A stretch of 64,000 nt of DNA, taken from the NCBI RefSeq assembly GCF_900114645.1, contig NZ_FOTR01000008.1, positions 124,001-188,000 on the forward strand. The letters are read 5' to 3'. Position numbers and translations under genes: made by a program. Below, piece by piece: positions 11,621-12,816 of this stretch. The stretch's first letter is position 1. Every line of letters begins with the position of its first letter. The DNA comes from Gracilibacillus orientalis (GTDB taxonomy: Bacteria > Bacillota > Bacilli > Bacillales > Amphibacillaceae). Below the pieces are notes generated by a model. It ran no database searches and was not told the DNA's origin. It saw only the letters and a list, made by a program, of their open reading frames with translations.

Positions 11621-11649
11621 TAGTCATTCACACGAAATTTGTGTAAAAT
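11621..11649 (+). promoter_or_regulatory. Sigma-A-like promoter of the structured leader
   Basis: TAGTCA at 11621-11626 and TAAAAT at 11644-11649 are separated by 17 bases. The spacer carries a near-palindrome ACACGAAATTTGTGT. The predicted start is about 15 bases before the ribosome site of the small leader ORF. Confidence 0.55.
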
Positions 11650-11672
11650 GTAAATAAGTGGAGGTGTTGTTG

Positions 11673-11732
11673 ATGGCAATTCATACTACGTTGCCTGAAT
11701 GTAAGCTGACCCATGCAAAGCCTGGCAATTAA
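11673..11732 (+). CDS. Leader peptide, 19 aa
   Basis: ATG 11673 follows GGAGGTG at good spacing and encodes MAIHTTLPECKLTHAKPGN then TAA. Codons 13-16 form one arm of a 12-bp RNA stem, and the stop codon touches the first arm of a second, interlocking stem. A ribosome here would therefore decide which RNA structure forms. The -1 frame stays open from 11705 to the end of the downstream gene. No run of a single amino acid points to a simple attenuation signal. Confidence 0.5.
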   Translation: MAIHTTLPECKLTHAKPGN

Positions 11733-11800
11733 GGCGATACTTTGTATGGGTGATGGGAATATCGCCTTTCTTGCGCATGCTTTGCCCTTATAGAAAGCAT
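11709..11800 (+). ncRNA. Structured leader with interlocking stems (pseudoknot or switch)
   Basis: Three stems can form. Stem 1 pairs ACCCATGCAAAG (11709-11720) with CTTTGTATGGGT (11740-11751), 12 bp with one G-U. Stem 2 pairs AAGGCGATA (11731-11739) with TATCGCCTT (11760-11768), 9 bp. Their arms alternate, so they form either an H-type pseudoknot or mutually exclusive hairpins. Stem 3 pairs ATGCTTT (11777-11783) with AAAGCAT (11794-11800) just before the ribosome site of the next gene. I do not match it to a riboswitch class I know. Confidence 0.6.
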
Positions 11801-11821
11801 AAAATAAGGAGCTGGCTACAA

Positions 11822-12085
11822 ATGAAAGAAACAAAGGCGCAAGCGTTGTTACCGGAAGAATTAATACATGCTCTACAAGAGTATATAGAAGGCGAAACGA
11901 TTTATATCCCTAAACGAGAAGAACGAAGAAGATGGGGAGTCCAGACAGGGAATCGTGAATATTATCATAGAAGAAATTGTCAGATCAGACACGCCTTCAA
12001 GAACGGGACAACGATTCATCAACTAGCAACAGACTATTGTTTATCAATGGAAACAATCAAAAAGATAGTATATAAACGTGCTTAA
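11822..12085 (+). CDS. CD3324/Mor-like DNA-binding protein
   Basis: An 87-residue protein with the CD3324-family pattern: LLPEELIHALQEYIEGETIY at the N-terminus, a basic loop IPKREERRRWGVQTGNREYY, and a C-terminal helix-turn-helix (GTTIHQLATDYCLSMETIKK). The group resembles the Mor activator of phage Mu in its C-terminal half. Start ATG 11822 has AAGGAG upstream. The 170-base structured leader with a peptide ORF precedes it, suggesting control after transcription starts. Targets are unknown. Confidence 0.8.
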   Translation: MKETKAQALLPEELIHALQEYIEGETIYIPKREERRRWGVQTGNREYYHRRNCQIRHAFKNGTTIHQLATDYCLSMETIKKIVYKRA

Positions 12086-12177
12086 CAGAAAGATATGGTA
12101 AGAATGATTACAAACTATTCTTGCCATATTTTTTTATGGAATATTTGATACACTAAAAAAGAAAGGAGTAGTTATAT

Positions 12178-12816
12178 ATGGATAACTTTATCTATCCTCA
12201 TCAATTTCATTTTATTAAACTGCAAACAAAAACGATGGTAAGTGCCCGCTCCAATTCGACGGATGCAGATGTGATCCATGCTGTAAAAGAAATGGCTATT
12301 GAACGAATAAATCATCTATTACCAAACTTAACAACAGAACAAGAAGACATCTTAATGGGAATTGATCAAGTAAAAGACAAAGAAAACATGGAACAGTATC
12401 TGCAACAAATAAAACAACATGTGATCCCTTTTCCAACTATTAATGATAAACAAGTACAAAAAACATTTCCAAAAGTAAAGAAACTGCAAACACCTGACCT
12501 TGAGCAGATGGACAGAAAAGAAACTGTTTATTTAAGGTGGTATGATAAAGGCTCGGCAAAAACATATATGCTGATACTAAAAGACGCCAAACTCATCGGA
12601 ATTCAAGGTTATTTAGAAAGTTCACTGCATAAAGGAATATGCACCATTTGCAATGAACTGGGAGAAGTAGCATTATTTACGTCAGAGAAAAAAGGACAAA
12701 TGCGCGGCATGTATACGAAGAAAGGGAACTATATATGCAAAGATCCTGTTATTTGCAATCAAAACATAACAGATGTTCAACCGCTCCATTCTTTTGTGGA
12801 ACACCTTAAAGCATGA
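12178..12816 (+). CDS. FusB/FusC-family EF-G-binding protein
   Basis: A 212-residue protein matching the elongation factor G-binding family. The N-terminal half is helical (MDNFIYPHQFHFIKLQTKTM, VIHAVKEMAIERI). The C-terminal half is a treble-clef zinc finger with CTIC (Cys-x2-Cys) and CKDPVIC (Cys-x4-Cys). Staphylococcal FusB and FusC release EF-G from ribosomes stalled by fusidic acid; chromosomal Bacillaceae homologs probably protect or recycle EF-G. It starts at ATG 12178 after AAAGGAG and is a single-gene unit with its own terminator. Confidence 0.85.
   Translation: MDNFIYPHQFHFIKLQTKTMVSARSNSTDADVIHAVKEMAIERINHLLPNLTTEQEDILMGIDQVKDKENMEQYLQQIKQHVIPFPTINDKQVQKTFPKVKKLQTPDLEQMDRKETVYLRWYDKGSAKTYMLILKDAKLIGIQGYLESSLHKGICTICNELGEVALFTSEKKGQMRGMYTKKGNYICKDPVICNQNITDVQPLHSFVEHLKA

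Follow-up and report, generated by a model that had tools for sequence, protein, structure and literature searches.

Leader-controlled genes and the leader in the window

One precedent for a leader in front of a FusB-family gene is that of fusB on the staphylococcal plasmid pUB101, a case of translational attenuation. According to passages of three publications (PMC3352095, PMC12008383, PMC12493156), induction of this gene comes from ribosomes that stall on its leader: when fusidic acid halts them there, the Shine-Dalgarno (SD) sequence is exposed. For FusB homologues, a 2025 review (PMC12493156) describes the mode of regulation as unknown. Here we describe a leader found in the window, by which we mean the whole 64,000-nucleotide stretch of Gracilibacillus orientalis DNA that was analysed (contig NZ_FOTR01000008.1, positions 124,001 to 188,000). 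It precedes a gene of the CD3324 family, which is followed by a gene for a FusB-type EF-G-binding protein.

The leader resembles that of pUB101 fusB, as the latter is portrayed in those passages, in having a leader ORF with a good SD before a FusB-family gene, with hairpins overlapping the ORF and an SD. The pUB101 leader differs in its peptide (MLKDITYLKLLDLEYKMLCS, read by eye) and simpler stems, has by eye no pseudoknot partner and is not accompanied by CD3324; it (L136) gave no match to our covariance model R1, described below, with E-value limits of 1 and of 5. With ermC-type attenuators, as outlined in an excerpt of PMC5418344, the window leader shares an ORF over the first arm, alternative pairings and an SD in the last stem. 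Unlike them, it has one arm with two partner choices and a local SD hairpin, and masking its first arm opens no SD in nested folds. In the hflXr (lmo0762) leader rli80 and in bmrB-bmrCD, as far as excerpts of their descriptions go, translation of a small ORF or of an upstream gene controls a ribosome-rescue or resistance gene in Firmicutes. Those two systems act through a transcription terminator, whereas here none follows the leader hairpins and only one is found, after CD3324. The leader of an Enterococcus faecalis EF-G-binding gene (L238, about 1380-1510) also has a short ORF with an SD (MIRQTLSLSKTHEVVCH, by eye) and stems, but the stems are different and the model does not match it. Since the pUB101 leader is unmatched and that of E. 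faecalis is different, we suggest that leader control of the EF-G-binding family arose more than once.

The elements of the leader in the window are as follows.

11644-11649, forward strand: -10-like hexamer TAAAAT, a candidate promoter (9 of 12 matches, not above chance there)
11660-11666, forward strand: SD of the leader ORF, GGAGGTG, read from the sequence
11673-11732, forward strand: leader ORF MAIHTTLPECKLTHAKPGN, 19 codons, crossing arm a and stopping at arm b
11675-11695, forward strand: P0 hairpin over the leader start, GGCAA (11675-11679) with TTGCC (11691-11695), identified by the arm-swap test and pair counts
11709-11721, forward strand: arm a (ACCCATGCAAAGC), with alternative partners a' or a'', identified by the repeat finder, shuffles and covariation
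11731-11739, forward strand: arm b (AAGGCGATA), identified by the repeat finder and covariation
11740-11751, forward strand: arm a' (CTTTGTATGGGT), partner of 11709-11720, with double-sided changes in the covariance-model hits
11760-11768, forward strand: arm b' (TATCGCCTT), partner of arm b, identified by the repeat finder and covariation
11779-11785, forward strand: arm a'' (GCTTTGC), which competes with a' for arm a (11715-11721) and abuts the anti-SD on its 5' side, identified by the repeat finder and the arm-swap test
11786-11809, forward strand: anti-SD hairpin, CCTTAT (11786-11791) with ATAAGG (11804-11809), covering the CD3324 SD

The original prediction, made from the letters alone, had proposed the two interlocking stems, and both are present at these positions in the sequence and in the output of a repeat finder. 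Stem I (11709-11720/11740-11751) is 12 nt long and 92% complementary, and stem II (11731-11739/11760-11768) sits inside a 15-nt pair that is 87% complementary. The predicted 19-codon ORF could likewise be read from the sequence: it is served by GGAGGTG, runs across the first arm and ends at the second, its TAA (11730-11732) overlapping the start of arm b. The third stem, which the prediction had placed just before the ribosome site of CD3324, covers the SD itself (AAGGAG, 11806-11811; start ATG at 11822, both read from the sequence). The main rival pairing was overlooked. The GCAAAGC at 11715-11721 in the stem I arm has a second partner, GCTTTGC at 11779-11785, and the score of the window leader for one 5' arm with two alternative 3' partners was reached by 0/200 dinucleotide shuffles. 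According to the prediction, stems I and II can form an H-type pseudoknot or exclude each other. The pseudoknot layout stands, while the mutual exclusion of a/a' and b/b' does not; it is a/a'' that excludes a/a'.

The window leader has an ordinary single-sequence folding energy (z = -1.08; 26/200 shuffles fold as well or better), and a promoter scan around it returned 2 sites against a shuffle mean of 3.9, that is, fewer than in shuffles. The case for a leader RNA rests on conservation and covariation. A -10-like hexamer lies between -75 and -18 from the leader start in 122/133 loci of relatives, compared with 42/133 in a control stretch; the hexamer at 11644-11649 would put the transcription start of the window leader slightly upstream of its SD.

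Conservation and alternative pairing of the leader

A blastn search with the leader against 61 genomes gave a match in 16, namely 11/17 of the same genus and 5/44 others. Scanning genome contigs with a pattern that fixes the letters of arms a, b and a' yielded at least 119 loci, in Bacillus, Paenibacillus, Cohnella, Brevibacillus, Sporosarcina, Planomicrobium and other Bacillales. The model R1 was built on alignment A3, which holds 117 of 135 loci (L074, L075 and L126 were skipped, L042 and L133 are duplicates and 13 more are over 95% alike), and contains no a/a' pairs. It found the leader in 95/398 Bacilli genomes and 27/145 genera, with 114 hits. Among 398 genomes drawn from the phylum, 10 carry the leader, all 10 of the window's own class. 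Rfam gave 0 matches at the gathering score in the window and 0 on the leader in 15 further leader-bearing loci, where the sole hit was a purine riboswitch elsewhere in L020; at E up to 10, just 3 sub-threshold chance hits fell near the window leader. A known Rfam RNA is thus ruled out for the window leader and these 15 relatives, in line with the prediction that the layout fits no known riboswitch class. The leader is a real, widespread, conserved RNA family with no Rfam match, and as a structured leader it is undescribed in Rfam and the literature searched.

Some genomes hold several copies. G384 has four (L167-L170) and G272 three (L171-L173), and these precede different genes, for the EF-G-binding protein, CD3324 and a SpoU methyltransferase.

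Five helices recur: P0 at the leader start, a/a', b/b', a/a'' and the anti-SD/SD hairpin; in many relatives a/a'' is extended by a second stretch, a2/a2''. We compared native arms with arms exchanged between species in 113/117 leaders (L098, L108, L117 and L127 have no a'' anchor). The native arms paired better for P0 (z = -11.2), a2/a2'' (-6.7), a/a'' (-5.0) and anti-SD/SD (-3.5), each with 0/200, while two control arm pairs gave z = +0.9 and -0.2. The low score of a/a' (z = -1.1, 29/200) is explained by the scarcity of variation in this helix within the swap-test set. For a' with the anti-SD the result was z = -2.1 (5/200).

Alignment A3 surpassed its shuffles in the proportion of paired cells and in the count of double-sided cells, but not in how many pairs show double-sided change, a number reached by 265/500 and 132/500 shuffles. 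Both the letters and the pairing of arms a, b and a' show unusual conservation, which for the letters in A3 is owed in part to the scan pattern that fixes them. Alignment A5, made of 71 covariance-model hits (70 distinct), is the better test because the search model contained no a/a' pairs. Here a/a' and b/b' were 97.9% paired, against 93.8% in shuffles, and showed double-sided change in 9 pairs and 53 cells, against 4.5 and 10.5 (0/500), counts that are inflated by the relatedness of the sequences. In a/a', C-G to U-A and U-A to C-G replacements occurred in 10, 15 and 11 sequences. The helices fitted in the model had 27 pairs with double-sided change on A5, an alignment biased toward those helices. 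The anti-SD/SD hairpin was paired in 91.5% of cells on A3 and 93.0% on A5. Each of a/a' and a/a'' is thus conserved with compensatory change, and the covariance search that the original prediction had proposed as its check bore out the paired arms in related leaders. The structural claim is strong.

A further set comprised 20 CD3324 genes without a good model hit, fetched by coordinates, three of them with weak hits (E 0.0009-0.008). The layout of one arm with two partners, together with a leader ORF, was present in 7/20 (L215-L218, L228, L230, L232; each 0/200 shuffles), and in these the pairing layout is the same although the letters are largely different. These letter-divergent variants are the strongest sign of selection on the exchange itself. 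In L222 and L223 the layout score was reached by 10/200 and 4/200 shuffles; in L224 and L225 it was reached by 3/200 and 6/200, but the pairings are of a different kind. The rest of the set was at or near chance. CD3324 copies with a YKNGKDVLPP-like start (L219, L220, L224-L227, L229, L231) show no such hairpins by eye, and have a short upstream ORF that runs into the CD3324 ribosome site.

In 126/135 loci an SD-like sequence and a start codon could be assigned to an ORF that crosses arm a, the start being picked so that the ORF passes this arm; when weaker SDs were allowed, the ORF crossed arm a in 132/133 loci. The frame over arm a was 0 in 102 loci and 1 in 29, and the other two frames were free of stops over this stretch in 50/126 and 77/126. 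Because the frame differs between loci, what seems to be conserved is the crossing by a ribosome and not the peptide. The leader stop codon lies before b in 32/106 loci and between a' and b' in 58/106, and never past a''; a terminating ribosome would thus mask different arms in different clades. Two further readings were considered and dropped. A conserved leader peptide acting as the sensor was rejected because the clades differ in frame (102 against 29 loci, as above) and the recurrent HAKP letters fall in the paired arm. A second ORF starting in a' was seen by eye in three same-genus leaders only and is absent from the others.

Genes behind the leader

The features downstream of the leader in the window are as follows.

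11822-12085, forward strand: CD3324-family (Mor domain) gene (NF040785, 104.7 bits, cut-off 65; Pfam Mor, 31.7, cut-off 24.9)
12093-12135, forward strand: terminator-like hairpin with a T run, arms 12093-12105 and 12117-12129
12144-12154: extended -10-like sequence TTTGATACACT, just before the EF-G-binding gene and similar by eye in same-genus loci
12178-12816, forward strand: gene for a FusB-type EF-G-binding protein, the likely effector (PF07299, 91.9 bits, cut-off 27.1; PF16571, 36.4, cut-off 27.2)

The first of these genes is of the Mor/CD3324 type, as had been predicted, both models scoring above their cut-offs. The literature search yielded no paper on the CD3324 family. The EF-G-binding protein has an N-terminal EF-G-binding domain and a treble-clef C-terminal domain (PF07299 and PF16571). 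The fusidic acid resistance exception models for FusB, FusC, FusD and FusF gave 113-117 bits, below their cut-offs of 375-450; with scores so far under these cut-offs, we regard the protein as a FusB homologue and claim no resistance for it. In Pseudalkalibacillus hwajinpoensis the leader (E = 8e-16) is followed by genes annotated as a CD3324 family protein and then a FusB/FusC family EF-G-binding protein.

Among the 117 listed pattern loci with downstream DNA (2 of the 119 listed have none), 66 begin with CD3324 and 51 with the EF-G-binding gene, which in a single case is cut by the end of its locus. We examined 71 of the 114 model hits, made up of the 30 best and 41 chosen as weak or second copies; 44 have CD3324 as first gene, 24 have the EF-G-binding gene, one (L170) has a SpoU methyltransferase gene and two have a broken CD3324 start. 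Among the genes listed, an EF-G-binding gene lay within 2.5 kb on the same strand at 84/114 hits, at 35 of them directly. Probably, then, the leader does not work for CD3324 alone, and its functional target is the FusB-type EF-G-binding gene, which comes after CD3324 or takes its place. The reverse does not hold for every copy. The 150 EF-G-binding genes listed include 83 with the leader and 67 without, so the gene does not require it, and the copies from Listeria, Enterococcus and Priestia (one each) had no match to the leader model.

Other second genes after CD3324 are rarer. They encode ANT(9)/AadA-like (L169), nucleotidyltransferase-domain (L176) and GNAT (L074) proteins, a SpoU/RlmB-like methyltransferase (L175) and ribosomal protein L4 (L187, 932-1552; 226 bits, cut-off 130), as well as generic products, namely alpha/beta hydrolases (L145, L172), an NAD(P)H-binding protein (L012) and a 7TM signalling protein (L168). 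For the drug-related names among them, model scores are weak to moderate and mostly lie under curated cut-offs.

A terminator-like hairpin follows CD3324 in 96/119 distinct loci, against 3/357 shuffles, and starts a median of 6.5 nt past the stop codon. In 38/120 loci, such as L025, L101 and L145, it is a GCACTG...CAGTGC dyad. The letters of this dyad are kept across genera and with different second genes, and it could also be a candidate protein-binding site. The dyad found in the window occurs a single time in its own genome, so the idea of a CD3324 operator gains no support from a regulon. Behind the hairpin and before the effector gene, a further conserved block near GAGTTTGTTTCTTA, a candidate promoter or RNA element, was found in 18/119 loci (L025, L069 and L158 among them), against 0/595 mononucleotide shuffles. 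The T run and the start of the EF-G-binding gene are a median of 97 nt apart (59 loci). Given the hairpin and, as a rule, enough space for the second gene to have its own promoter, control by the leader may stop at CD3324. CD3324 may then be a relay, translated under leader control and acting in turn on the effector gene; alternatively, the effector gene may be transcribed on its own.

On a Priestia megaterium plasmid (L237, 243-3303), genes annotated as macrolide glycosyltransferase, EF-G-binding protein and alpha/beta hydrolase are adjacent.

How the leader may act

We are moderately confident that this cis-acting leader couples CD3324, the FusB-type EF-G-binding (ribosome-rescue) gene or both to translation of the leader ORF, which would be a novel form of leader-ORF control. 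The downstream genes probably free stuck ribosomes, and the leader may sense blocked protein synthesis. The layout suggests an exchange between two states: a/a' interlocked with b/b' would form the H-type pseudoknot, and a/a'' would be the competing state. In the off state, the a/a'' rod would stack on the anti-SD hairpin and silence the gene. A ribosome halted within the leader, for instance because EF-G is trapped on it, would cover arm a and remove the rod, giving the on state, while b/b' would hold a' near and allow a quick reset of the switch. In operons that begin with the FusB-type gene the product would directly rescue stalled ribosomes; in those that begin with CD3324, CD3324 would add a second step. 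Both the direction and the signal of this proposed switch are borrowed from the staphylococcal fusB precedent, as recounted in the passages of the publications cited above.

The anatomy of an attenuator is largely present. The leader ORF has its own SD, and a/a' and a/a'' are exclusive stems of which one lies over the ORF. The downstream gene has its SD sequestered, with 91.5% and 93.0% of the anti-SD cells paired (A3 and A5) and a mean unpaired SD fraction of 0.20. We placed a 29-nt ribosome footprint on codons 0-23 of 106/113 leaders and computed nested folds, which have neither pseudoknots nor coaxial stacking. In these folds a stalled ribosome did not free the SD: the mean unpaired fraction was 0.20 without a ribosome and 0.16-0.23 with the footprint at all codon positions. 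The unpaired fraction of a'' rose from 0.08 to 0.31. The original prediction of a translation-dependent switch is therefore borne out in part: the ORF across arm a points to a dependence on translation, while nested folding shows no opening of the SD. For the same reason the simple ermC 1:2/3:4 model is rejected for now, and the sole candidate for a 2:3 pairing, a' with the anti-SD, scored weakly in the swap test. We consider the leader attenuator-like in anatomy and context but leave it outside the ermC/fusB type, because the nested folds release no SD and 67/150 of the listed EF-G-binding genes lack the leader.

The leader provides a concrete conserved element for 83/150 listed chromosomal FusB homologues in Bacilli. 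If it does answer stalled translation, rescue of EF-G-blocked ribosomes would be an old, regulated housekeeping response and not a recent resistance trait, and a Mor-type regulator family, CD3324, would be linked to that rescue. A broader proposal, which we hold only tentatively and think rather doubtful, is a portable translation-stress module in which the leader, usually with CD3324 and a terminator or operator, precedes varied ribosome-protecting or drug-modifying genes, senses stalling generally instead of a single drug and has CD3324 relay the signal to the effector promoter. The candidate effectors would then be the EF-G rescue, ANT-like, 23S methyltransferase-like and L4 paralogue genes.

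The same structures could instead be read by a protein. The EF-G-binding protein or CD3324 would bind its own leader in a feedback loop, the ORF being incidental or setting basal folding. CD3324 has a Mor domain, which is of DNA-binding type, arms a, b and a' keep their letters as well as their pairing unusually well (in part through the search pattern), and a passage of PMC3352095 reports that FusB binds nucleic acid and raises the idea that it might thereby control its own production. This reading is unlikely, as neither protein is common to all the operons (66 listed loci begin with CD3324, 51 with the EF-G-binding gene and one hit with a SpoU methyltransferase gene), and SD, start codon and ORF across arm a are retained even where the frame changes. 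A ligand-binding riboswitch, with the pseudoknot as aptamer and the a/a'' exchange as expression platform, would agree with the H-type layout, the strong sequence conservation and the SD-sequestering hairpin. The variants that keep the pairing with most letters changed are not what is expected of an aptamer, the downstream genes share no metabolic pathway and Rfam had no match at the gathering score in the window or the 15 further leader loci; we find a riboswitch quite improbable.

Control could also lie mainly at the RNA level of CD3324 and the terminator behind it, by read-through or a CD3324-activated promoter, the leader setting only the level of CD3324. The position and frequency of the hairpin (a median of 6.5 nt past the CD3324 stop; 96/119 loci against 3/357 shuffles) and the promoter-like stretch after it in the window genus agree with such control, and bmrB-bmrCD of B. 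subtilis, as sketched in an excerpt of its description, offers a precedent in which translation of an upstream regulator gene governs a terminator. Yet in about half of the listed pattern loci the EF-G-binding gene comes straight after the leader, with no CD3324 in between, and we think it very improbable that control lies mainly there. To chance folding around an ordinary 5' region we give practically no credence: the ordinary energy of the window leader (z = -1.08) would suit it, but cross-genus conservation, the swap tests, covariation and the 0/200 shuffles contradict it.

Two irregular arrangements of the leader and its genes were also seen. In L189 (G285) the leader and CD3324 are duplicated in tandem before one EF-G-binding gene, and in L141, L188 and L207 the leader is retained before a shortened or broken CD3324 reading frame.
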